20,413 nt of DNA, taken from IMG/VR virus record IMGVR_UViG_3300035688_000079, positions 1 to 20,413 of that record, one strand, 5' to 3'. The translations under genes and the position numbers were made by a program. This stretch comes from a virus. The notes beneath the pieces were generated by a model. The model ran no database searches, was not told where the DNA came from, and saw only the letters and a list, made by a program, of their open reading frames with translations. This document shows positions 1 to 16,294 of this stretch, in pieces (the first letter of the stretch is position 1; each line of letters begins with the position of its first letter).

Positions 1-2352
1 TTCCCGCAGGTTCTCCTTCTGCGCTAAGAGTTCCTGGGCCCTGAGGCTGAGGGTCCCCATGTCCGTGATGTTCTTCGCAGGAAAGGACTCTTCAATTACG
101 CCGTAAAGCAGCTGCGTGGCCAGGTTTGTGGACGATGCGACCAGGGATGCGCCGGCTCCGGCGCCGACAGCGTACACGGTCGTATCAATCTGGGACCAAT
201 CTTCATCGTGGGTTGATTCAGTTTCCTGGTTGCCTTCCAGGATGGTGATGTTCTGCACGACCCCGAAACTGGGGGCGAAGTCTAGGGTCTTGTTGGCGTT
301 GAGTCGGAACAGCCAACCGGTCGCGTTCTGAATTTGAATTAGGGCGTCGTAGAGGGTTTCGTAGCTGGCTACGATTTTGATGTTTGAGCCGAAAAGCGAT
401 ATCGACCCGGCAGTGATCCCGCATGGGTACCGGGTGAGCAGGTCGGTTATGATGTTCTTCGGGTCGTCGAGGTAGGTTCGGTTCACAATGCGCCGCTGAA
501 GGGTGATCACTTCGCTGACGCCGTCGATGGTGAGGAGCGGCGTTGCACCGCTGACTCTCTTTCGATGCGTGATGCGGCCGGCGAACTCTTTCACGCCAAA
601 CCGGTAAATCTCAACCGCCCACCATCCCCCAACACTAACGTTCATCGAGGGTGTTGACACGCTGAACGGTTGAGGCTTGAAGTCAGTTGAGAGCGTGTAG
701 TTTCCGGCGCTGAAAACAACTTCCTGGCCGGCAACGAAGACCTGGTAGTCCTTTGAAGCGTCAGGCGAAACTTGGCCATAGTAGATGTCGATGAGTTGTT
801 GGCTGGCTGAGGGGGCGTAGGCTGAGTCGCCGCCGAAGACGGCTAATACTCCACCGAGGCCAGGGGCACTACCGGGGGTGAATACGGTCTGTACTTGGCC
901 ATTCGCATCCGTGGTTGCACTCGTGGGGCTGCAGGTCCCTAGGTTCGGCGTGAATGAAATCGTTTTTCCTGTCACAGGGTTTCCGGTCGCGAGGTCCGTT
1001 AGCGTGGCCGTCACGAGGGCGCTTCCTAGGGAAAGGCCGCTGCCAGCCCGGTAGACGAGAGTGTTATTCGCGACGATGGTCTGTGTGCTTTGGTTCGGAA
1101 TCCAGGTGTAGACGTCGCCGCCCCAGATGGTTATGGTGGAACTCGTGTAGAGGAGTGCGGTCCCGTCGGTGTCGTACACTTTGAAGTAGCCTGAGAACCC
1201 GTATGCCGTAGTGATCAGGCTGCTGACGGAGATGGTTACTGGGGTTCCAGGAGCGGGACAGGTGGCTGATCCAACGAGGCCACCGCCTGCGTTGTATAGT
1301 TCAACCTTCTGGCCACCAAGCAGCGCGTTGATGGTGATGACTTGGTCGAGCATGATGATGAGGTCGTCGAAGGTGCATTGGGCGCTGCGATTATCCGCGC
1401 CCGCGGAGGCGTTGCGCAGTTTGAGTTCGAGGGTCTGCGTTCCTGTCTGCGTGACCGCAATCCATCCCGAGTCGAAGAAAACGTTATCCAGGGACCTGGC
1501 TTCGGTCTGCACGTCCTGGTCGAAGATGGTTTGGCTGCCGATGGCGTAGCTGGCCTTCCACACGTTGGCGCCGGTAACATAGCCGAAAGAGTCAACCAGG
1601 AAAGTGCCGGCATTATTACTGAATCCAACATTCCCTGGCTGAGTATCTGGCGCTGGAACAGAGGCATCACTGCATGTTCCGATCTGAACGTTATCCCTAT
1701 AGAGCTTGACGTTGCCCGCAGTCCAGGCCACCATGTAATTGTGGTAGCCGGCGACTATGGCGCCGCAATCCGTGGTTGTCGCCAGGCCTCCAGAGTTCGT
1801 GTACAGTTTAACGTGGCCCACGCCATCCAAGTTGAATTGGATGGCAATGGCGGAAACGGCATCAGTGGCAAGGTAGACGGATACGGTACCTTGAATGGGG
1901 CTGTCGGCTTTGCAACACACGAACGCGTTGTAGTACACACTTGGTGGGAGCTGGAAAGCGGCCTGGTTGGTGAAGGATGCCCCCGCGGGAATGCTGCAGA
2001 TGCTGTTGGCAACGGTGCAGGTGCCGCCACCATTCCACTTCGTTGCGTCGAGGCTGCTTCCTGGGAAATCATCCATGATGGAAGCCACGTAGCCGGGCCC
2101 ACGGAACAGGCGGGTTACACGGTTAGCGCCGGACCCCACGGCCACGCTCTTCGTGAACCTGGCATACGCGTTACTTGGCCAGCTGCTTAGGGTTTCGAGT
2201 TGAAACGCGCCGGCGCCGCTGTGGGCTTTTCCAATCTTGCTGCCCAGGGCGGTTGTTGTTCCGCTCTTGTCGAAAGCCCAGCCGTTCAGGTAACTCTCAC
2301 AGTTCTCCGCGAGAATCAACCCGGTGCTGCCTAGAATGATGACGCCGGTCAT
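1..2352 (-). CDS. Tail tip/baseplate hub protein with lectin-like and Ig-like domains (C-terminus cut by window edge)
   Basis: The frame is open for 784 codons and leaves the window without a stop. The ATG start overlaps the tape-measure stop as ATGA. Residues about 94-257 read as a concanavalin A/LamG-like jelly roll (opens DDFPGSSLDATKW, closes FLVDSFGYV). Residues about 426-525 fit a bacterial Ig-like (Big_1/invasin) repeat, with GNPVTGKTISF, TTDANGQ and GGDSAYAPSAS. From about 570 the chain becomes a phage hub-type domain (WWAVEIYRFGVKEFAGRIT, then LLTIDGVSEVITLQRR and LTRYPCGIT), resembling siphovirus Gp37-like or late-control-D proteins. The position right after the tape measure fits a tail-tip protein that caps the tube and contacts the host. 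The domain names come from sequence pattern. Adhesion through the lectin and Ig parts is inferred. Confidence 0.85.
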   Translation of the reverse strand, partial: MTGVIILGSTGLILAENCESYLNGWAFDKSGTTTALGSKIGKAHSGAGAFQLETLSSWPSNAYARFTKSVAVGSGANRVTRLFRGPGYVASIMDDFPGSSLDATKWNGGGTCTVANSICSIPAGASFTNQAAFQLPPSVYYNAFVCCKADSPIQGTVSVYLATDAVSAIAIQFNLDGVGHVKLYTNSGGLATTTDCGAIVAGYHNYMVAWTAGNVKLYRDNVQIGTCSDASVPAPDTQPGNVGFSNNAGTFLVDSFGYVTGANVWKASYAIGSQTIFDQDVQTEARSLDNVFFDSGWIAVTQTGTQTLELKLRNASAGADNRSAQCTFDDLIIMLDQVITINALLGGQKVELYNAGGGLVGSATCPAPGTPVTISVSSLITTAYGFSGYFKVYDTDGTALLYTSSTITIWGGDVYTWIPNQSTQTIVANNTLVYRAGSGLSLGSALVTATLTDLATGNPVTGKTISFTPNLGTCSPTSATTDANGQVQTVFTPGSAPGLGGVLAVFGGDSAYAPSASQQLIDIYYGQVSPDASKDYQVFVAGQEVVFSAGNYTLSTDFKPQPFSVSTPSMNVSVGGWWAVEIYRFGVKEFAGRITHRKRVSGATPLLTIDGVSEVITLQRRIVNRTYLDDPKNIITDLLTRYPCGITAGSISLFGSNIKIVASYETLYDALIQIQNATGWLFRLNANKTLDFAPSFGVVQNITILEGNQETESTHDEDWSQIDTTVYAVGAGAGASLVASSTNLATQLLYGVIEESFPAKNITDMGTLSLRAQELLAQKENLRE

Positions 2353-4664
2353 ACGGTCCCCCGCTTGCCTCTGCCCGCGTCACGGTAGAGTGTCTGAACG
2401 AGGCGTTTCTCGAGGAAGGTTTGGATTTGCTGGCCGTCCAGGTAGATGCTGATAGGTAACGTGATCGCCTGACTCGAGGGGGCTACAGGGGATCCAGTCG
2501 CGGTGGGTGCTGCCCCGGCAACTGCTGTCCCTCCAGTTTGCATAGTGGAAAGGATGCCAGTGGGACCTGAGAATCCTTGGGCGAACTCTCCCTGGAGGGC
2601 AGCCATGCCGGCGTGTGTTTGCGCGACCATCTCAGCCATCATGTCCGGCCAGATAGAATGATGCGTTAGGCTATTCCAGAGGTTTGTTGCAGCCTGGGCG
2701 ATGGCGCTCATCGCACCCTGCACGAGGTCCCCTAACGTGCTCATGGCTGACGCGGCGGCATTCTGCATGTCACTCCACGCAGTGGCCAGCGCGGACTTCG
2801 CATTGGTGATGAAAGAGCTGATGGTGGATGTGATGGCAGCGAACTCAGTGTTCGCAATTTTGCCGAGATTATCGAAAGCATCACTCCAATTGCCCTGCAG
2901 AATATCCAAGCCGACTTGGAGGGCTGACGCGAGGAGTGGGCTCTGGCCTTGAACGGCGGCTATCGTCTTAGCGAGGGAATCTTCGATGCCTGCAAGGCCG
3001 TCCGACCATGAGGCTTTAACTGCCGTGATGGCTTGAGTGAAGGCGACCTGCATTTTGCCGAAGAGGCCGCCGGTTAGCGCGTTGAGTATGCCGGTTATGG
3101 CTTGCGTGGTGACCGCGAGCACCGCATCCCAGAGGTCTTGCCAGAGAGAATGCCCCACAAGCCAGTTGTAGAAGGCTTGGAAGCCGTCGGTGATCCACTT
3201 GAAGAATGCGCCGAGGGCGTTCCGTATCGCCGTCAGAATTGGGACTATGAAGTCCGCGGCGTCCTTGAAGGCCTGCGCAAACAGGTGTATGACTGGCGTT
3301 ATGACCTGGATTACAACAACGAGGCCCTTGATCACCAGGACGATGGCTTCCAGGATGGCTTGGAAGAGGTTGAAGTCGCTGCCACTGCCCGTAATAGCTT
3401 TCCATAGCTCATTGAACGCGTCCCAAAGAGGCTGCAGGGCTTGCATCAGTTGGTTGAAAGCGTCCTGCAAGGATTGGAGTGCAGGCATCAGGTCCCCCTT
3501 GACAGAGTCCCAGGCGTCGTTGAAGGATTTGACGAGGCCCGACCACACACCTTGGAAAGCGGACACGGTGCCCTGTATGCCCGGCAGCTTTCCGATCGCT
3601 GCAAAGAACCCCTCCACCGCGGGGATGGCTTTCGTGAACCCGTCAACGATCGGGAGAAGCGCTTCCAGGAGAGAGGTCAAGGCCGGTAGGAGTATGGCGC
3701 CAATCTTCTCGCCAAGCGTCGTAACCGCGTTCGCTAACCGCTCCTGGAGACCTGCGTAGGTCGTCGCCTGCGCCGCCGCGGTTCCACCGTACTGGTCGTT
3801 CACCTGGCTGAGAACGTTCGCGTAATCCATCGCCAGGGCTTTGCTGCCCTGGAAGTTGATGCCGAGGGCTCCGACAATCGTGGAGAGTTGGTCGCCGCTG
3901 ATGGCGCCGGCCTTCCACGCGGTCTCTATCTCTTTCACAATAGCCGCGTGCGTCATCATTTTCCCGCTGGCATCCGCCACGGCTAGGCCTGCGGCGGCCA
4001 TGGCATCGTCAAAGGATTTCAGTTGCGCCGTGGTGCCTGTTTCCAGGTTGACCGCCATTTCCTTAATTGCTTCCGTGCCAAGGGACGTCTGTTTGGCTAC
4101 GGTAGCGACGTCAATTCCGTACCGGACGAGTAGCATGCTGTTTCCTTGGAAGGCTTTTCCAAGCGCCGTGGCTGCGGTGCTGAGGTCGATGTGTTTGGCG
4201 GCCGCAATGTCAACGGCTGCGTTGAGTGCGTCGAGGGCTTGGCTGGTGTTCATTCCATAGGTGAGGAGGACTTGCATCGAATTGGTGAGGTTCAGATCGC
4301 TCTGGGTTGTCGATTCGCGGATTTTGTCGATGCCCGTCTGCAGTTGAAGAGCTGTCGCATCCCAGGCTGAGCCTGTGAGGTGGAGAACGCTTTGAATCCC
4401 CGTCCAAGCGGTCTGCATGTTGCCGGCGGCCGTGACGCTGTCCTGCAGGCCTTTGACTACTTCACCGATCCCTACTATGGCGGCGCCGGTTGGGCCTCCA
4501 ACCGCGAAGCCTTGGATCACTTGGCCAAGTTGCGAGAAGCCTGGGCCGAGGGTCTGCAGCTCCATGCCGATTAGGCCCATGGAAGCAGAAATCTTTCCCA
4601 TCACGCCTGAGGCTTCGTCGATGGCCTTCACAGTCATGACTATGCTGCCGATACTAACACTCAA
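2349..4664 (-). CDS. Tail tape measure protein
   Basis: At 771 residues this is the longest complete gene in the window. It is rich in Ala, long helices and hydrophobic stretches, including about 430-465 with ILEAIVLVIKGLVVVIQVI, as expected of a tape measure that sits in the tail lumen and may later enter the host membrane. The N-terminal third has the typical helix-rich pattern (VMTVKAIDEASGVMGKISAS). The C-terminus, after a Pro/Thr linker, ends LYRDAGRGKRGTV. TTG is preferred as start because GGTGG lies 6 nt upstream; an in-frame ATG nine codons later is the alternative. The gene follows the tail assembly chaperone and precedes the hub. By the usual rule of about 0.15 nm per residue, the tail would be near 115 nm. 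Confidence 0.93.
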   Translation of the reverse strand: MSVSIGSIVMTVKAIDEASGVMGKISASMGLIGMELQTLGPGFSQLGQVIQGFAVGGPTGAAIVGIGEVVKGLQDSVTAAGNMQTAWTGIQSVLHLTGSAWDATALQLQTGIDKIRESTTQSDLNLTNSMQVLLTYGMNTSQALDALNAAVDIAAAKHIDLSTAATALGKAFQGNSMLLVRYGIDVATVAKQTSLGTEAIKEMAVNLETGTTAQLKSFDDAMAAAGLAVADASGKMMTHAAIVKEIETAWKAGAISGDQLSTIVGALGINFQGSKALAMDYANVLSQVNDQYGGTAAAQATTYAGLQERLANAVTTLGEKIGAILLPALTSLLEALLPIVDGFTKAIPAVEGFFAAIGKLPGIQGTVSAFQGVWSGLVKSFNDAWDSVKGDLMPALQSLQDAFNQLMQALQPLWDAFNELWKAITGSGSDFNLFQAILEAIVLVIKGLVVVIQVITPVIHLFAQAFKDAADFIVPILTAIRNALGAFFKWITDGFQAFYNWLVGHSLWQDLWDAVLAVTTQAITGILNALTGGLFGKMQVAFTQAITAVKASWSDGLAGIEDSLAKTIAAVQGQSPLLASALQVGLDILQGNWSDAFDNLGKIANTEFAAITSTISSFITNAKSALATAWSDMQNAAASAMSTLGDLVQGAMSAIAQAATNLWNSLTHHSIWPDMMAEMVAQTHAGMAALQGEFAQGFSGPTGILSTMQTGGTAVAGAAPTATGSPVAPSSQAITLPISIYLDGQQIQTFLEKRLVQTLYRDAGRGKRGTV

Positions 4665-6966: not shown

Positions 6967-7416
6967 CTAGGTGGCCAGCTGCCGGTGCGTCCAGAACATG
7001 AAGTCCATGATTACCCTGGCTTCTCGAGTGAGAACGGGGAGTCGAACGCTGGCACCTAAGGGCAGGGCGTCGACGTCTAGCATTTTCCTGAGGCCGTGAA
7101 TGTCGTATGTGCTCCTGAGGGTGTCGATGGCGTTCATCAACGCCTGTTCAACAGCGTCGGCCAGTTGCGAGCATCCTTCCTTATCGTCGAAGTTGCAGTC
7201 CACCTGGAGATGGTACTGTTCCATGACGCCGCGCTTGGTTGAATCCTTGCGCAAGCCTACTCCTGGGCTTCTGCTGGTCCCTGAGACCATGGTGAGGACT
7301 ATGCTTCTGGTGTCGGCGCCTTCGAACGGCAGCTCCTTGTAAATCGTCACTCCAAGGTTCGCGTCTGTGAGAACCGTAACGAAAGCGGCCCGGACGTCTT
7401 CTCGAGGCGTACTCAA
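6967..7416 (-). CDS. Tail terminator/tail completion-like protein
   Basis: The 149-residue protein has the layout of tail terminator proteins (lambda gpU/SPP1 gp17/DUF3168-like). An N-terminal helix with 'REDVRAAFVTVLTDA' is followed by a strand-rich core (RSIVLTMVSGTSRSPG, then EQYHLQVDCNFDDKE), a long helix (CSQLADAVEQALMNAID) and final strands. In the family it forms a hexameric ring that stops tube growth and joins tail to head. The TTG start is well supported by GGTGA 6 nt upstream, located at the end of the preceding micro-gene. Position before the gp10-like and tube genes agrees. The assignment is by architecture and is less certain than for the neighbours. Confidence 0.65.
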   Translation of the reverse strand: MSTPREDVRAAFVTVLTDANLGVTIYKELPFEGADTRSIVLTMVSGTSRSPGVGLRKDSTKRGVMEQYHLQVDCNFDDKEGCSQLADAVEQALMNAIDTLRSTYDIHGLRKMLDVDALPLGASVRLPVLTREARVIMDFMFWTHRQLAT

Positions 7417-7422
7417 AACATG

Positions 7423-7533
7423 TCACCTGTGAATGGCCATGGCAATAGCTAGGACGGCGAGTAGAACGGCGAGGCAGGCCCACAAAGCGAGGTAAAATCC
7501 CTCAAGAAAGCCGGCTAAGAGAGGCCGCTTCAA
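7423..7533 (-). CDS. 36-residue single-pass membrane micro-protein
   Basis: A short frame between two tail/membrane genes encodes a basic N-terminus (KRP) and one long hydrophobic helix (ALWACLAVLLAVLAIAMA) ending in HR. It starts with TTG eight bases after the stop of the upstream membrane protein. Its stop TGA lies inside the AGGTGA ribosome-binding site of the tail terminator gene, so translation of the two may be coupled. Adjacent to another small membrane protein, it could belong to a holin or envelope-disruption set, but nothing in the sequence proves this. Confidence 0.5.
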   Translation of the reverse strand: MKRPLLAGFLEGFYLALWACLAVLLAVLAIAMAIHR

Positions 7534-7540
7534 ATCGAAA

Positions 7541-7822
7541 TCACTTCTTCTTGAAGATGCAGAAGATGGAGACCACCGCGAACGCTAACCCCGCGAAGGC
7601 CAGGGTGTGGGTGAACCACCAAACGACGAGGGCCAGGATGGTGGCCGGCAGGAAGAATATCACTGCCTTCAGAAGGATGATTGCGATAGCGCCGACGATC
7701 AGGAAGACGACGAGCAGGAGTACATCAACCATGAATGGTAGTGGGGTCGTGACCTCGGCAACACTCATGGCCATGGCGAGAGCTAGTACAGTCGTTATCA
7801 ATGCTAAACGGGTTCTTTCCAA
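7541..7822 (-). CDS. 93-residue membrane protein with about three transmembrane segments
   Basis: The start is TTG 7822 because a perfect GGAGGTGA lies 7 nt upstream. The frame stays open further upstream, but that part only mirrors the methyltransferase gene. An N-terminal signal-like helix (RLALITTVLALAMAMSVAE) is followed by two more hydrophobic helices (MVDVLLLVVFLIVGAIAII and FFLPATILALVVWWF) and a final hydrophobic run before the KKK end. Size, topology and basic tail would suit a holin-like protein. In archaeal viruses no holin family can be named from sequence, so the function remains open. It lies between a methyltransferase and a membrane micro-protein. Confidence 0.72.
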   Translation of the reverse strand: MERTRLALITTVLALAMAMSVAEVTTPLPFMVDVLLLVVFLIVGAIAIILLKAVIFFLPATILALVVWWFTHTLAFAGLAFAVVSIFCIFKKK

Positions 7823-7845
7823 AGCATTCTCACCTCCCAGGGTCC

Positions 7846-8382
7846 CTACACGTGTTGAAGTAGGGTGAGTGCGCGAAACCGGGTGTTCGTTCCAACCGCC
7901 AAGCCCACATAGCCAAGCAGCGCCCAGACCTTCTTGTTGTAAATCGGGACTGTGATGTCCACCCAAGCCAAGTTCGAGTCGGTACCCATAACCTGGCCAA
8001 GGTCCCTGATCACTTGGGGCTTGCTGAACGGCTTCTGGCCATACACTGCGAAATCCCTGGCTTCATACGGAGGATCCGCCACGGCCAGGTCGGCCTTGTG
8101 CAGCTGCTTCTTGTGGGCCAGCAGGTTCCTGGCGTCATCACAGATCTGCGGCCGGACCTTCGGGTTGACGTCGTATGTGATTGTTCCAGGGTCGTGAACG
8201 GTCCCGCTGAATAGGTGCAGGATGTGGTGGCAGTCAGGGTAGAGGGCGAGGATGCGGGCCTTCACGGAATGCGGGAAGACGCCATAGTATTTGGTTCGTT
8301 TCTTTCGGAAGAGAGCACCAATTACCCAAGTGCCGTAGAGGCGTCCGTTGTGGACCACGAGCGGCGCATACTGAGGAAACAC
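7846..8382 (-). CDS. DNA N6-adenine/N4-cytosine methyltransferase-like protein
   Basis: Residues 56-61 (HLFSGT) form a SAM-binding motif I. Asp/Asn at 71-73 fit the next acidic motif, and DPPY at 103-106 is the catalytic motif IV of amino-methyltransferases. The order I then IV with about 45 residues between is normal. At 178 residues it is compact and has no obvious separate target-recognition domain, so it is probably an orphan viral methylase that marks viral DNA, perhaps against host restriction. The GTG start lacks a clear ribosome-binding site, and the open frame continues about 15 codons upstream (reading NAQDRADHFSE) without a standard start. It is unusually placed between head and tail genes. 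Confidence 0.75.
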   Translation of the reverse strand: MFPQYAPLVVHNGRLYGTWVIGALFRKKRTKYYGVFPHSVKARILALYPDCHHILHLFSGTVHDPGTITYDVNPKVRPQICDDARNLLAHKKQLHKADLAVADPPYEARDFAVYGQKPFSKPQVIRDLGQVMGTDSNLAWVDITVPIYNKKVWALLGYVGLAVGTNTRFRALTLLQHV

Positions 8383-8434
8383 TTCACTGAAATGGTCCGC
8401 CCTGTCCTGTGCATTGAGAAAGACTCACACTCTT

Positions 8435-8830
8435 CTAGTTCGCTAGTAACTCAGCGATTGGGAACACAAATTTTCGAAGCAGCCAGTCCTTCAAGCGTGC
8501 GTGTGCGCGGCCCTGGTGGATATACATGCGATACCAGGTGACGGGGATGGTCACTGGCAGTTTCCCTTGGGCGACTCTCTTGATTCGGCAGAACGCCAGG
8601 CATGTGAAGTGCGGACGCCTATAGCCCAATTCGGGATGGCAGATGCAATTCCACCGCGTGACCTTAACGTTCGCCGGCGGTGTCATCCGCAGGTAGAGAT
8701 GACCGTCGAGCGCATCACGCATGATCATGGCATTGGGCCCGAACGGCTCGAAGGGGATCAGACGGTCTTTGGGTGGGATTTGTTGTACGCTTGAACCGTA
8801 GGGTAGGTTCTCCCGCAGCAAGAGTACCAA
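8435..8830 (-). CDS. Unknown 131-residue Cys/His-containing protein
   Basis: I do not recognise this family. The middle contains CICHPELGYRRPHFTC and a further Cys (LAFC), a cluster that could bind zinc. A basic C-terminus follows (HQGRAHARLKDWLLRKFVF). In collinear siphoviruses this slot, after the connector, often holds a head-closure protein, but the sequence does not show that fold. TTG 8830 is chosen because GGAGAG precedes it by 2-4 nt and an in-frame stop lies just upstream. The 5' end is only 27 nt from the displaced connector tail, consistent with it once directly following the connector gene. Confidence 0.62.
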   Translation of the reverse strand: MVLLLRENLPYGSSVQQIPPKDRLIPFEPFGPNAMIMRDALDGHLYLRMTPPANVKVTRWNCICHPELGYRRPHFTCLAFCRIKRVAQGKLPVTIPVTWYRMYIHQGRAHARLKDWLLRKFVFPIAELLAN

Positions 8831-8857
8831 ATCTCTCCAGTGCAGAAAACAACATCA

Positions 8858-8908
8858 TTAGCCAGGGGTCGGGTCCGCCCAGTCGTCAACGATCTTATCC
8901 GATGAGTG
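8858..8908 (-). pseudogene. Displaced original 3' end of the head-tail connector gene
   Basis: This short frame reads HSSDKIVDDWADPTPG then stop. The connector gene 1.5 kb away ends RSDKIVDDWNEPTRAQ. Eight residues (SDKIVDDW) are identical and the Asp/Glu-Pro-Thr that follows is conserved, although nucleotide identity stops at the 21-bp repeat. No start codon precedes it. It is best explained as the former end of the connector gene, cut off by insertion of the cassette, with the inserted DNA supplying the present end. Confidence 0.7.
8879..8899. repeat. 21-bp direct repeat, left copy (attachment-site candidate)
   Basis: It is identical over 21 bases to 10365-10385 and in the same orientation; the core includes AGTCGTCAACGATCTTATC. 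Bases on both sides differ between the copies. Inside is a small palindrome, TCGT-CA-ACGA. It lies in the displaced connector tail. Confidence 0.85.
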
Positions 8909-8911
8909 CTA

Positions 8912-9034
8912 CGATCACGACTGCCCACCAGAACGAAACAAGAATCCTGCAGGCGAGCTCTCAGCTTCAAATTGTGAAAAAGAGTTAAATCTGAACTCGA
9001 AGGTTGGAGTTTAGTTGGGCTAGAAGCGTATTCA
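8912..9034 (+). other. Leader region of the cassette gene
   Basis: These 123 bases have no minus-strand coding frame. An A/T-rich stretch at 8971-8990 (ATTGTGAAAA then AGAGTTAAAT) is the best candidate for archaeal BRE/TATA elements. A second weak one (GTTTAGTT) is near 9008. No clear Shine-Dalgarno sequence precedes the ATG at 9035. Confidence 0.3.
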
Positions 9035-10222
9035 ATGAAACATGTCGCGCTCCCTCTAATCGTTGCGCTACTCCTAACAGGCAGTGCAGTTGCTTCTACG
9101 TCGTTGCTTCCCGTCTCGGAAGCCCAACCGACCACTCTCCTGTCCGTTGACTTCACAGGAAGCACGCTCCCAGCAGGCTGGCTCCTTCAAGGATCAGCCA
9201 AATTCATCGGTGGTTTGAATTCTTCATCAGGTTTCGGAGGAATCCAACTTGTCAACAGCGACAGTGAAGAGGGTGCGGCTATCTATGGTACTCCTTTCAC
9301 CACACAGAATATCATCATAGAACTCAGCGGAATGTATACGCCAGGATGTACTTTCGAATTCTATTGTGACCACCAAGAATCGGATGACTTAGGCGTCGGA
9401 TTTTACTCTGATGGCCCATTAGCCAGTGTTGGGTCACACAATCCAGCCTCGTCCAATGGCTATTACGCCTCTTATGAGTTCTTAGGAGGCGGGAGTAATA
9501 TCCCTAGTCTGATTCATGATGGGCATAGTGTGTCGTTGGGAGGGAATCTGCCACCGTGGGGAACGAACTACCTATTTACGGATACGATGGTCACGCCGAC
9601 ATCAGTTTCCATGAACACATTAACTAGCACTAACGGCCCTTTCACACAAGCGCCTTCGATAAGTCTGACGAATATGCTAACGTACAACAACGCGACGGGA
9701 CTTGACAACTCCCATTCCACGCTTTACATAGGCGGCGCGACAGTCACAGGGTTCGTACACAATCCATGGGCCTTCATCTACGTTTACTGGTTGCGTATAT
9801 TGAGTTACTCAACATCAATCTCTAGCGAGATGTCGACCTTAATTTCTGGGACAAGCCAGACACAGACTGTTGTTGCACCCATTACTCAGTTTGTGACCCA
9901 GACTGTAACCTCAACTCAACCGCCGCTCACTCAAACACAGAGTGTTACTCAATCCATTACTCAAACTGTGACCCAAGGACAGACTACGCCAACGCCTGTA
10001 CTCAGCACGGCCGGCGCGAATAGCGTACTCTTGTACGCGGTTATCGGGGCGGTAGTAGTAGTGGCCGTCGTGTTAGTTGGGGTCTTCTTAGCACTGAGGA
10101 GCAGAGGCGACAGAGGAACTGCGAGGCCTACGTATGGCGCGGTCAAGGTTTGTCAGGTGTGTGGTAGCCCACTCTCGGGGCTTGAGCGGTTCTGCGATAG
10201 ATGTGGTGCGCCCCAGGGCTAG
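9035..10222 (+). CDS. Membrane-anchored surface protein: signal peptide, lectin-like ectodomain, Ser/Thr/Gln stalk, TM helix, zinc ribbon
   Basis: The 395-residue protein starts with a signal peptide (HVALPLIVALLLTGSAVAS). The ectodomain of about 240 residues is beta-rich and resembles a concanavalin A-like fold (opens VDFTGSTLPAGWLLQGSAKF). Residues about 276-322 form a low-complexity stalk built from TQTVTQ-like repeats. A membrane helix at about 331-354 (LLYAVIGAVVVVAVVLVGVF) is followed by Arg-rich residues and a cytoplasmic zinc ribbon with CQVCG and CDRCG. This layout is common in archaeal cell-surface proteins and unlike virion genes. It is on the strand opposite to the operon and inside the repeat-bounded cassette. 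A role in surface modification, adhesion or superinfection exclusion is inference. Confidence 0.88.
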   Translation: MKHVALPLIVALLLTGSAVASTSLLPVSEAQPTTLLSVDFTGSTLPAGWLLQGSAKFIGGLNSSSGFGGIQLVNSDSEEGAAIYGTPFTTQNIIIELSGMYTPGCTFEFYCDHQESDDLGVGFYSDGPLASVGSHNPASSNGYYASYEFLGGGSNIPSLIHDGHSVSLGGNLPPWGTNYLFTDTMVTPTSVSMNTLTSTNGPFTQAPSISLTNMLTYNNATGLDNSHSTLYIGGATVTGFVHNPWAFIYVYWLRILSYSTSISSEMSTLISGTSQTQTVVAPITQFVTQTVTSTQPPLTQTQSVTQSITQTVTQGQTTPTPVLSTAGANSVLLYAVIGAVVVVAVVLVGVFLALRSRGDRGTARPTYGAVKVCQVCGSPLSGLERFCDRCGAPQG

Positions 10223-10340
10223 TTGTCCAATAGTACGCCGACTTCACAGCGCACGAAAGGCGGAGGCCTACCGCATACCCGCTACTATCTGTAACACTGC
10301 TAGTCCAGAGACGGATGGACCTGCATTAGGGACATCGCTC

Positions 10341-10790
10341 TCACTGAGCTCGCGTTGGCTCGTTCCAGTCGTCAACGATCTTATCACTTCGGTATGGGGT
10401 GGATGCAGTGTATGGGTACCGCTTGATCCAAGGCGTCAGCAGGTCCTGCAGATCCTTGGGAAGCACCGCCTGAACAGGGATTGAGAGTTGGAACATGGTC
10501 TCGTGGACCAGCGGGCCCATCTTGTTCATGACCATGTACTGAACCATGTTCGACGCAGCTCGCGCCGCAACATCCTGGATGGCTGGGGGAATTGCGCCTG
10601 GAAAGTCGACGTCGAAGTCCCGTTTGCAGTACCGGTTGATGTGGCTTTGCGCTCGAGGAATCAGCGTGGCGTCTATGAAGCTGTCGAACGCGGCCTGGTT
10701 AGCGTAAGGAACGCCTGGCGTTACGTTGAGGGCATCCCATTTCGTGGCCGCGTACTTCTCAACCTCGGTGTGGTTGGTCCACGGCGTCAT
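10341..10790 (-). CDS. Head-tail connector (gp6/gp15-type adaptor)
   Basis: The 149-residue, mostly helical protein follows the major capsid gene, where phage adaptor proteins lie. Its features match the HK97 gp6/SPP1 gp15 class: a helix with SHINRYCKRDFDVDF, a following IPPAIQDVAARAASNMVQYM helix that would form the connector ring, and a C-terminal helix (LPKDLQDLLTPWIKRYP). ATG is preceded by GAGGGT. The last 15 residues come from the inserted cassette side of a 21-bp repeat; a displaced alternative ending lies at 8858-8908. In the virion it would join the portal to the tail. Confidence 0.8.
   Translation of the reverse strand: MTPWTNHTEVEKYAATKWDALNVTPGVPYANQAAFDSFIDATLIPRAQSHINRYCKRDFDVDFPGAIPPAIQDVAARAASNMVQYMVMNKMGPLVHETMFQLSIPVQAVLPKDLQDLLTPWIKRYPYTASTPYRSDKIVDDWNEPTRAQ
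10365..10385. repeat. 21-bp direct repeat, right copy (attachment-site candidate)
   Basis: This copy lies in the coding sequence of the connector and encodes DKIVDDW on the minus strand. It is identical to 8879-8899. Target-gene sequence lies to its right and cassette sequence to its left. Confidence 0.85.
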
Positions 10791-10840
10791 ACCATCTACC
10801 CTCTACTATCTGACAATTACGAGAATGAGTTGGAACGGGA

Positions 10841-10861
10841 CCTCACCATGAAAGAGTGAGG
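10841..10861 (-). other. Hairpin between capsid and connector genes
   Basis: CCTCAC pairs with GTGAGG around a nine-base loop. It is the second of two hairpins in the 116-bp gap between the major capsid gene and the connector, a gap that holds no gene. It may help adjust expression of downstream genes. Confidence 0.3.
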
Positions 10862-10873
10862 CGAGAAATTCAC

Positions 10874-10893
10874 GCCCGTTCAATGAAACGGGC
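10874..10893 (-). terminator. Hairpin after the major capsid gene, possible attenuator
   Basis: GCCCGTT and AACGGGC form a perfect seven-pair stem with a six-base loop, 13 nt after the capsid stop codon. It is followed only by a weak T-rich run (AATTTCT). Structures here often lower expression of genes after the capsid gene or protect the 3' end of its mRNA. Confidence 0.45.
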
Positions 10894-10906
10894 AATCCTG
10901 AGAACT

Positions 10907-11890
10907 CTAGCTGTGTATGCCTTCTAGTTCAGCGATCGCTGCGGCTACGCCGATTTGGGGTTGCAGCCACTGGCGCATAATGAACGCATCATACCCAGCC
11001 TCTTCATTGCGATATCGGGCTGCTTCGGTCGGTCCCGCGCCGAGTATGAGTCCGCTGACCGTGTCGAGTACGTATGCGCTTGTTGTGGGGGTCATGAAGA
11101 AGTCGCTGTATCCTGTTACGCCTGGTAGGCCGGGTATGGGGAATCCGCCGCCCTTCGACAGGTCTGGGTAAACTGCGCCGGCTAACTGGCCTTTCACGAA
11201 GTCGTTGCCGAAGAAAGCCGACCACCCAGTCGGGTGGGCGACGACCGCGTTAGGCCTAAACCCGGCTGTGGCGATGCTGACCATAACGCCGATGATGTCC
11301 TTGTATGGGTTGTTGGCGCTGCGCCCGCTGGTAATCGTACCCCAATCGGTACCCGCGGTTTCTTGGGATTCGGTTCCAGCGTCTAGGGCTGCTGCGATCT
11401 GGTTGTTTTCGCTGGCTGCTAGTGCGCCTGCGGCGTCTCGGGTTTGGGTTCCGAAGATGTCCACGTTGGCCGTCTTCTGAACTTCATCCGAGATGACGAT
11501 GTGGGTGACGTTCTTCCAGAGCGAGAAGGTTAAGCTAGTCCATCCAGCCGCTTCCAATGAGGCCTCCGTTAGCGGTGGAACCTTCTCCTGCGCTGTGGGC
11601 TTGGTGAATATTGGAATCGTTGCTTTGAGTTCGTTCATGTTGATGACGCGGCATACGTTGCGCAGGTTGTAAACCGGCCTTTCCAGGCCTAGGATCTCCT
11701 GCAGTAGTATGGGGATGTTGACGGCGCTGATGTCTGCGATGCTGAAGAGCTGCGCCTGTTTCGGGTTGGCGAGGTTCATCAATAGCGCTTGCGTTTCGCC
11801 GACTCTGCCTTGGTAGATCCTCCGGGAAGTCGGGTCGTACCACGCACTGTTTCGGAGCTCTCCAGTTAATCCGCCTTCAAGTTTGTCCAT
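10907..11890 (-). CDS. Major capsid protein, HK97 fold
   Basis: The 327-residue protein has the usual size and position for an HK97-fold capsid subunit: after protease/scaffold and decoration genes, before the connector. Recognisable features are a long N-terminal region leading to 'NIPILLQEILGLERPVYNL', the E-loop/spine strands (LKATIPIFTKPTAQEKVPPL), a spine-helix region rich in Ala with ISDEVQKTANVDIFGTQT, and the P/A-domain pattern FRPNAVVAHPTGWSAFFGND. The C-terminus has FIMRQWLQPQIGVAAAIAEL. ATG is well supported by GGTGA 6 nt upstream. A hairpin follows the stop. It would form the icosahedral shell. Confidence 0.92.
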   Translation of the reverse strand: MDKLEGGLTGELRNSAWYDPTSRRIYQGRVGETQALLMNLANPKQAQLFSIADISAVNIPILLQEILGLERPVYNLRNVCRVINMNELKATIPIFTKPTAQEKVPPLTEASLEAAGWTSLTFSLWKNVTHIVISDEVQKTANVDIFGTQTRDAAGALAASENNQIAAALDAGTESQETAGTDWGTITSGRSANNPYKDIIGVMVSIATAGFRPNAVVAHPTGWSAFFGNDFVKGQLAGAVYPDLSKGGGFPIPGLPGVTGYSDFFMTPTTSAYVLDTVSGLILGAGPTEAARYRNEEAGYDAFIMRQWLQPQIGVAAAIAELEGIHS

Positions 11891-11900
11891 GGCTCTTCAC

Positions 11901-12302
11901 CTACAGGTCGATGCGGATGAGGTCGCCGTCTTGGGCTGCTGCATCGTATGCGATTTCGCTGAGTAGCAATGCACCGGTCCCGGTTGCGCCGGATACGGTT
12001 ACTGAGTAGCCGTCTTGTTCGCTGACTTCGTCGACGTCCGAGGGGACTACGGGTGAGAACTGGTTGATTGCTCCGCCAGCCGCCACCCAGACGACGCCGT
12101 CGACGACAATTTTGCCTTTCATATCTGCGCCGCTGGCAACGCCCTGGTTGGCTATGCCGAACGGTCCCTTGTCGCCAGCCTGCCAGGGCCGGCCGTCTTT
12201 GAGGCTGATGATTTGGCCTTTGGTGATGGTTGCGGTTGCGTTCTTGCTAGACGGGAGGAGGAAGAAGTCGTGGGTCATGTCGATGTCGCCTGCGTTAGGC
12301 AT
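11901..12302 (-). CDS. Capsid decoration/cement protein (DUF2190-like)
   Basis: This 133-residue protein is nearly all beta. Segments such as ATITKGQIISLKDGRPW, GPFGIANQGVASGADMKG and KIVVDGVVWV are typical of small trimeric capsid cement proteins that sit between the protease and the capsid gene in many siphoviruses. A strong ribosome-binding site (AGGAGAG) precedes the ATG, which overlaps the 3' end of the protease/scaffold gene by eight bases. Ten bases separate its stop from the capsid start. It probably binds to the outer shell after expansion and stabilises it. The family is assigned by pattern and context. Confidence 0.82.
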   Translation of the reverse strand: MPNAGDIDMTHDFFLLPSSKNATATITKGQIISLKDGRPWQAGDKGPFGIANQGVASGADMKGKIVVDGVVWVAAGGAINQFSPVVPSDVDEVSEQDGYSVTVSGATGTGALLLSEIAYDAAAQDGDLIRIDL

Positions 12303-14260: not shown

Positions 14261-14509
14261 ATGAGTGAAGGTAGCATGAACGCTGACTACGTAATTTATG
14301 TCGCAACCAAACATGGAAGAACTTGGAGATACGTCAAAGAAGACGACGGATGGACACAAACCGCCCCGACAGGTCTCGTCCGTCGGCTCAGCGCAGAACA
14401 GTTGTTGTCGCATCTTTTGCCCCCGCTCTCAGGCGACCAGTCCAACCTTAGCGTCAGAGTGGAACGAAGGGTACGTGGAACAAAGAGGAAATTTGTCAAG
14501 TCGGGGTGA
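14261..14509 (+). CDS. Unknown 82-residue plus-strand accessory protein
   Basis: This gene is on the strand opposite to the head operon, in the gap between the protease and portal modules. The N-terminal half alternates strands and aromatic residues (ADYVIYVATKHGRTWRYVKE). It continues to GWTQTAPTGLVRRLSAEQLL and a basic tail (RVERRVRGTKRKFVKSG). I do not recognise the family; the basic tail suggests nucleic acid contact. The true start may be the ATG five codons in (14276), which has GAAGGT close upstream. It converges on a 45-residue minus-strand ORF. With its own promoter candidate it fits an independently expressed accessory gene. Confidence 0.58.
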   Translation: MSEGSMNADYVIYVATKHGRTWRYVKEDDGWTQTAPTGLVRRLSAEQLLSHLLPPLSGDQSNLSVRVERRVRGTKRKFVKSG

Positions 14510-14675: not shown

Positions 14676-16294
14676 TGTCCGGTCGGCTCCGTTTCCTGCG
14701 TCTCTGCGAGTTCAGCTGGGTCGAACTTGGCGCCTGGGCCATCCCGTAGGAGCTCGTACGCTTTCGCTTGGTCGATGAAGCCGAGGCCACCATCGTAGGC
14801 GGCTGCTGTTGCTGTTAGGAGTTGGAAGAAGTCAGTTGTGCGAATCTCACGCCACCGATGCCGCACGCGGACCGGCGGGTCCTGGCCTTCGGGAACCTTG
14901 AGGTACATTCGGGTTAGGGGTTCGTACCATTGCTGTTCCACGACCCGCTGTATCCAACGTTGAATATCCGTGATGGGTCCGTCGACGAATGATTCCAGCT
15001 GCGTGTAGCTTGTCGCTCGGTTCACCTGATCGGTGCGGTTGAGGATGAACTTCGGAACTTGGAAGTTGCCGATGATCTCCTGGTCCAGGTCGTTCTTCAC
15101 TGCGACGAGGCTTTGCAGGTCGGGCTTCAGGTCGATAACTTGAATCACCCAACGGTTGTCTGTGGCAACATGTTTGCCAGGCCGCAACGCAGCGATGTGC
15201 GCGTCTATCAAAGCCTGAACATCGGCATCGGTCAAACCTGCTGGCAGCCGGTCGACGTCGAGGCTGTGTATGGCGATGCCGGCCCAGAGAGTTGTCGCAG
15301 CTTCCTTCAAGTCTTCAATGCGAATCTTCGCCCTGGTCTCCACATCGTCCAGGACCGGTTCAATATCGCTGATGCCTTCCCAGTCTGATTCGAGGGAGTT
15401 GTTCGTGAAGTAGAGGAGCTCGCCTGGGGCGTAGAAGTTCTTCTGGCCACGCCACCAGAAACCTTCCAATTCCCAGTCCTCGTTCACATTGGGGCGTAGG
15501 TCGAACAGGCTTAGGAGTGGGAGGGAGATTAGACGCCCAGGTTCCTTTTTCTGGTTGGATTCAATTTCAAAACCGGCCTTGCCATAGATTTTGGCTTTGA
15601 TGATAGCCACGCGCAGAACGTGGTCCAGGTCGACGCGGAGGTTGATTTTGTCAATCCACTGCTTCAACGGCAGGTTAGCATCGATGGCTTGCTGCTGTTG
15701 TTCGGGTGTTAGACCTTCGCCGACGGGTTCCAGGACCGTGTCGAAAGATTCCTTCGTCGACCAGTATGCGAGGGCGTTGATGCATCCGCGCACGATGGCG
15801 TCCATGCGGTAGGCGCGGTAATGCTTCTCCATCCCCTTGTAGGCTTCGAAGATGGTCTGCGTCATGCCCAGATAATACTTGGACTTGGCAGCGGAGAGCT
15901 GGCGGCTTAGGGGCAGGCCACTCAGCTGCATCGCGGCTGCTTCAGCAACACGCCTGGAGCTCGCATGAACGGCAATCCGAACGCCGGACGGTGTTCCTGG
16001 GTAGGGGAAGGAAACCGATTTCTCGCTGACCGTGACGCCAGGCATCCGCTCAAGCGCGGAGAAATCCCCGATTGGGGTCCCTCCTGCAGACCTAGTGCCT
16101 GCAACAGGCCGGCGGTCCCTGGTTGCGGCTTTGGTGGCCATCAACGGCCGCTTGGTCGGTAACCGACCAGCCTTCTTTGGTGCATGCGTGACGGTCCAGG
16201 GAGGCGGCTTGTGTGCACTGCGCGTTTTGCGCATTCTGCGCGTTTTGCGCGGCTTGGGCGGCCAGGGCTTGTTCTTCGACTTGGTCAATGCCAT
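14672..16294 (-). CDS. Portal protein
   Basis: The 540-residue protein is a phage portal of the large-family type (SPP1 gp6/DUF935-like pattern). The core has helical segments such as RAYRMDAIVRGCINALAYW, a wing/clip region with APGELLYFTNNSLESDWEG, the stem region KNDLDQEIIGNFQVPKFIL, and the 'RATSYTQLESFVDGPITDI' helix typical of portals. It lies after the terminase and before protease and capsid genes. A very basic N-terminal extension of about 65 residues (KPRKTRRMRKTRSAHK) is unusual and may contact DNA in the head. Twelve portals would form the DNA channel. ATG 16294 is preceded by GGTGA. Confidence 0.93.
   Translation of the reverse strand: MALTKSKNKPWPPKPRKTRRMRKTRSAHKPPPWTVTHAPKKAGRLPTKRPLMATKAATRDRRPVAGTRSAGGTPIGDFSALERMPGVTVSEKSVSFPYPGTPSGVRIAVHASSRRVAEAAAMQLSGLPLSRQLSAAKSKYYLGMTQTIFEAYKGMEKHYRAYRMDAIVRGCINALAYWSTKESFDTVLEPVGEGLTPEQQQQAIDANLPLKQWIDKINLRVDLDHVLRVAIIKAKIYGKAGFEIESNQKKEPGRLISLPLLSLFDLRPNVNEDWELEGFWWRGQKNFYAPGELLYFTNNSLESDWEGISDIEPVLDDVETRAKIRIEDLKEAATTLWAGIAIHSLDVDRLPAGLTDADVQALIDAHIAALRPGKHVATDNRWVIQVIDLKPDLQSLVAVKNDLDQEIIGNFQVPKFILNRTDQVNRATSYTQLESFVDGPITDIQRWIQRVVEQQWYEPLTRMYLKVPEGQDPPVRVRHRWREIRTTDFFQLLTATAAAYDGGLGFIDQAKAYELLRDGPGAKFDPAELAETQETEPTGQ
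16219..16250. repeat. 14-bp tandem repeat in the portal N-terminus
   Basis: TGCGCGTTTTGCGC occurs at 16219-16232 and 16237-16250. The 18-bp period equals six codons and encodes RKTRRM/RKTRSA, so it probably arose by local duplication of the basic tract. Confidence 0.6.

Follow-up and report, generated by a model that had tools for sequence, protein, structure and literature searches.

How could a surface-protein gene have been added at the very end of a virion gene without breaking it, and what kind of recombination could have placed it there? The question is raised by a 20.4-kb IMG/VR virus record (IMGVR_UViG_3300035688_000079), referred to here at its full length of 20,413 nt as the window. 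Its structural module lies on the minus strand and comprises genes for terminase, portal, an HK97-type capsid protein and a connector, followed by the 8435 gene, a DNA methyltransferase-like gene, a tail-terminator-like gene, a neck protein and a tape measure. The product of the 149-aa gene at 10341-10790(-) is presumably a head-completion ("connector") protein, a role assigned from gene order; it is 76-87% identical to its relatives in four sister viruses (L003, L004, L007 and L006, the last a 40-kb record) and matches one PHROG of unknown function. Searches of Pfam and of PDB sequences gave no match to the connector, and its predicted fold, of low confidence (pLDDT 46), gave no useful fold match.

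A first-pass annotation of this DNA had described two exact 21-bp direct repeats flanking an opposite-strand surface-protein gene, one repeat within the connector gene and the other in an orphan frame with the same residues, beyond which the two 3' ends differ in DNA while remaining related; our analysis bears out this anatomy throughout. Exact copies of CCAGTCGTCAACGATCTTATC occur at 8879-8899 and 10365-10385, and this is the sole exactly repeated 21-mer of the window; none was found in the four sister genomes. The repeat is not expected by chance, since dinucleotide-preserving shuffles of the window gave zero matches to it even at <=3 mismatches. The right copy (10365-10385(-)) encodes DKIVDDW within the connector gene, which terminates ...YRSDKIVDDWNEPTRAQ-stop through a cassette-side tail at 10341-10364(-), where NEPTRAQ-stop conforms to the family consensus N-[ED]-P-[TS]-x-x-Q-stop. 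The left copy (8879-8899(-)) opens a detached connector 3' end and no gene, because a stop codon lies closely upstream. Its frame reads ...HSSDKIVDDWADPTPG followed by two stops, and the detached second tail is DKIVDDWADPTPG, again with two stops; the 24 nt of this displaced tail beyond the repeat (8855-8878(-)) encode ADPTPG and both stops and run collinear with L004 into the next genes. Only 12 of 24 positions are identical between the two tails beyond the repeat, yet each aligns with tails of the sister viruses. Among six alleles compared over the 21-nt core and the 24-nt tail (15 pairs), the window copies agree best in the core (21/21, all other pairs <=18/21) and least in the tail (12/24, all others 13-21/24), a pattern suggesting that the crossover most likely lay inside the 21-bp core, between two molecules with unlike tails. 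Deletion between the repeats in silico gives an intact connector ending DKIVDDWADPTPG.

To the left of the displaced tail, the DNA remains collinear with L004 through a short zinc-finger-like ORF (8758-8860(-)) and into the 8435 gene (8435-8830(-), 131 aa, conserved). This small ORF, situated between the displaced tail and the 8435 gene, is common only to L004 (about 90% identity over 80 nt). Its frame differs from that of the 8435 gene, whose start it overlaps, and the window lacks its usual ATG, a codon within the connector tail.

The 1.49 kb between the repeats hold a single long gene, on the opposite strand at 9035-10222(+). The segment without a sister counterpart is exactly 8900-10340, which matches nothing in any of the four sister viruses and whose boundary coincides with the repeat. 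The 395-aa product of this moron-like gene has a signal peptide, a beta-rich ectodomain, a TQT-rich stalk, a TM helix at about 325-350 and a zinc-ribbon motif (CxxC..CxxC) at its C-terminus. No homologues were found in IMG/VR, INPHARED phages, GTDB genomes or the sister contigs, and the predicted structure (pLDDT 41) gave no useful fold match. The GC3 of the gene is 0.52, versus 0.66-0.74 in the structural genes, an atypical composition as in morons; atypical values were also seen in two other added genes. A weak TATA-like GTTAAA stands 51 nt before its ATG; no significant hairpin or terminator was detected downstream, and hairpins around the cassette were no better than those of shuffles. The signal peptide, TM helix and C-terminal zinc ribbon argue for the host membrane, and against the virion, as the most likely destination of the protein, which makes a swapped virion surface gene unlikely. 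Its role may lie at the cell surface of the host, superinfection exclusion and adhesion being two examples.

The cassette also contains a short trace of its possible past. A leader motif stands ahead of the connector gene at 10797-10812(-), and a second copy (CAGATAGTAGNNGGTA) lies within the cassette at 10276-10291(-), just past the connector stop; elsewhere this motif was seen only ahead of the connector or of a gene at the connector's position. The position of the second copy behind the connector stop hints at a possible origin of the cassette in a second connector region that has since been gutted, although the match is short and the point a weak one.

The first-pass annotation had proposed looking in relatives for an uninterrupted connector beside the 8435 gene, and this arrangement was found in all four sisters: the connector runs straight into the 8435 gene in L003, L004, L006 and L007, with the ends of the two genes overlapping or adjacent. 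The added gene thus lies, in the manner of a moron, between two genes that are contiguous in these relatives. The more distant L005, L030, L032 and L033 are without this gene order or without the full tail. L006 is the closest virus overall (its capsid gene has 96% DNA identity to that of the window), but its connector-8435 region is another allele (80% and 77%). Identity to L006 falls to 72-87% over 8460-10800 and recovers on either side, to mostly 93-100% over 10801-12300, toward the MCP, and to 86-96% over 7860-8459, on the far side. Judged from this profile, the connector-8435 module and its cassette constitute a foreign tract in an L006-like backbone; exchange among related viruses has moved or reshaped this tract, whatever first built the cassette. 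An archaeal host is suggested by protein features. The best host clue is only a 27% match to a Methanomicrobiales-assigned virus, and the MCP has no relatives in GTDB genomes.

Comparable cassettes occur elsewhere in this virus group. In L003, a surface gene (7392-7892, within the segment 7186-8001) lies between the MCP and connector genes, with a stem-loop element (CCTCACTCTTTC...GTGAGG) on each side of it in diverged copies; the element is single in the other four genomes. The product of this gene has a signal peptide, a carboxypeptidase-regulatory-like domain and a VPEF-type C-terminus. The MCP-side copy of the element resembles L004 and L007, and the connector-side copy resembles the window. 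In L007, a MazE-like antitoxin and ParE-like toxin pair (15372-16108) is inserted between two tail genes and is flanked by 45-nt direct repeats, 89% identical, which contain the near-palindrome ATTTCATGAAAT. The flanking repeats of L003 and L007 are unrelated to one another and to the 21-bp repeat. L004 carries two opposite-strand surface genes (1126-4337), one with a transglutaminase domain and one with CBM96, inserted behind the portal gene; neither this 4-kb insert nor the other added genes had flanking repeats above background. A general rule that inserts carry flanking repeats was rejected, for when the edges of 18 unmatched segments were compared, just two, the window cassette and the surface gene of L003, beat all background pairs, the L007 repeat having been found separately. 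That repeats are unrelated or absent among the inserts argues for recombination at any short homology, and not for one site-specific system.

We think it probable that this mosaic archaeal tailed virus gained a moron-like gene, in a form that can be removed again, through recombination at a gene end present in duplicate. The surface-protein gene would have entered at the junction of the connector and 8435 genes, joined by recombination within 21 bp of the connector 3' end between the virus and donor DNA that already bore the gene beside a spare connector end; that this end was already detached in the donor follows from a crossover inside the core between molecules with unlike tails. The connector would have been kept functional by continuation of its reading frame into the spare end (NEPTRAQ), the other end (ADPTPG) being left beyond the cargo, and the direct repeats would make the insertion reversible, recombination between them restoring an intact connector. 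The joining was presumably the work of general homologous or virus-coded recombination and not of a dedicated integrase. Several lines of evidence converge on this reading: the four relatives of the same gene order are uninterrupted at this point; L003 and L007 show a like footprint built of different sequences; the cassette sits in the recombined tract of an L006-like backbone; the cargo is atypical in GC3; no integrase or resolvase was found in the contigs searched; and duplicated gene 3' ends have a precedent in the mycobacteriophages discussed below. Against it, one identity of 21 bp is little for general homologous recombination to work with; the donor must have borne a connector end already detached from its gene, an attP-like feature whose origin is left unexplained; a recombinase may lie elsewhere, since all the contigs may be incomplete; and the cassette was seen in one genome, with no second carrier.

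The attP-like donor leads directly to site-specific integration, the explanation favored by the first-pass annotation. In the form considered here, a small circular cassette, its attP encoding a substitute connector 3' end, would have integrated into the connector 3' end as attB, with a recombinase supplied in trans by a host or helper. The anatomy is formally that of attL and attR, with an identical 21/21 core, diverged tails that both encode a gene end, and NEPTRAQ-stop restoring the reading frame, and archaeal elements are known to integrate into the 3' ends of protein-coding genes (PMC6563490). However, neither the cassette nor the related contigs tested, the 40-kb L006 record included, revealed a recombinase: profile searches found tyrosine recombinase (PF00589) in 0/10 contigs and serine recombinase (PF00239) in 0/11, these contigs being possibly incomplete, and a virus-coded integrase or resolvase was rejected on these searches. 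Pattern scans of IMG/VR, exact and degenerate, found the 21-bp site restricted to connector genes, so that the predicted occurrence of the same site with other cargo in other genomes failed to appear; the sister cassettes have unrelated repeats, and four relatives are empty. What stands of the earlier proposal is insertion where a structural gene ends, together with duplication of that 3' end; site-specific integration as a shared system is not supported, nor is a trans-mobilized cassette. We regard site-specific integration as unlikely, while conceding it some weight. Should a dedicated recombinase act on this site after all, the cassette would represent a new class of non-autonomous viral element, an outcome that present evidence does not favor.

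At the opposite extreme, the arrangement could be plain illegitimate accretion of a moron, a non-homologous joining of two connector alleles around the surface gene in which the 21-bp identity is a similarity of alleles that is complete by chance. This would suit the other added genes that are without flanking repeats above background, such as the L004 insert, as well as the resemblance of the two flanks to different alleles, a feature shared by the two stem-loop copies of L003, which likewise resemble different relatives. Since core identity between relatives never rises above 18/21, and the pair whose tails differ most agrees best in the core, we hold such joining to be quite unlikely. A chimera of metagenome assembly would accord with a structure seen in a single contig, and with a repeat whose length may be close to a small k-mer size, but the structure is coherent, both tails are homologous, the reading frame is restored and comparable repeat-flanked cassettes occur in two other contigs; an artifact is accordingly very improbable. 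Still further removed is transposition with a 21-bp target-site duplication, to which we give almost no credence: an exact direct repeat does surround the insert, but both tails past it are homologous to connector tails (12-21/24), with their shared consensus, and the insert has neither a transposase gene nor a flanking pair of long inverted repeats. Target-site duplication as such was excluded, because its product would be unlike two connector tails.

The mode of gene gain proposed here may be set beside several known systems. Phage morons of the Hendrix/Juhala type usually have no flanking repeats. The window cassette resembles them as a single opposite-strand gene between genes that are adjacent in relatives, with atypical composition and a likely host-modifying product, and differs in its flanking repeats, in a promoter that is no more than suggested and in the lack of any terminator detected. 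In lambdoid phages, short conserved boundary sequences mediate modular shuffling, and Arbiol et al., in 2010, reportedly described regulatory stem-loop cassettes associated with modular shuffling in T4-type phages. The duplicated stem-loop element that flanks the added gene of L003 resembles such elements, whereas the window repeat is coding sequence and not a regulatory element. Elements surveyed in Thaumarchaeota are integrated into the 3' ends of protein-coding host genes by recombinases or casposases (PMC6563490); the window cassette shares with them insertion in a gene 3' end and element DNA that completes the reading frame, but is without a recombinase and has a virus structural gene as its target. 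A parallel for the reading we favor is offered by the Cluster I mycobacteriophages Island3 and Brujita (genes 67/68), where one of two close relatives has an extra gene and, past the insert, a second copy of the 3' end of the preceding gene, about 60 bp; the other relative has a single recombinant copy, and the authors invoke general enzymes recombining the shared ends (PMC3029335). The window insert likewise lies between two copies of a gene 3' end, the connector end being repeated past the insert and single in relatives. The mycobacteriophage case differs in concerning a bacteriophage, genes outside the structural module and a longer repeat, and in that the repeat is the 3' end of the extra gene itself, whereas in the window a detached end stands behind an opposite-strand gene.

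By this analogy the present case would be instructive without being categorically new, an Island3/Brujita-type event with an archaeal tailed virus as its setting; ordinary acquisition of a gene through recombination at short shared sequences accounts for the pattern better than machinery dedicated to gene swapping. It offers a well-bounded example of how such a virus could add a host-modifying gene beside an essential virion gene, the inserted DNA bringing a spare gene end that preserves the latter. A broader proposition is that these archaeal tailed viruses harbor a class of small, non-autonomous cassettes with surface-protein genes or toxin-antitoxin pairs as cargo. Such cassettes would dock through their own copies of virion-gene ends or boundary elements and pass from virus to virus by recombination, without damage to essential genes; we consider this generalization doubtful. 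The virus group, with its empty-site relatives and two more repeat-flanked cassettes, could serve to test whether archaeal viruses gain and lose genes via short boundary repeats.

Additional accessory genes were noted in the same genomes. Outside its structural module, the L006 contig (oriented 3032-7775) has what we take by eye to be DUF3800-like, AIPR-like and DNA methyltransferase genes, with a possible role in defence or anti-defence. In the window itself, an opposite-strand ORF of 82 aa (14261-14509, GC3 0.54) occupies an inserted stretch of some 370 bp that follows the portal gene and is present in L006 but absent from L003.
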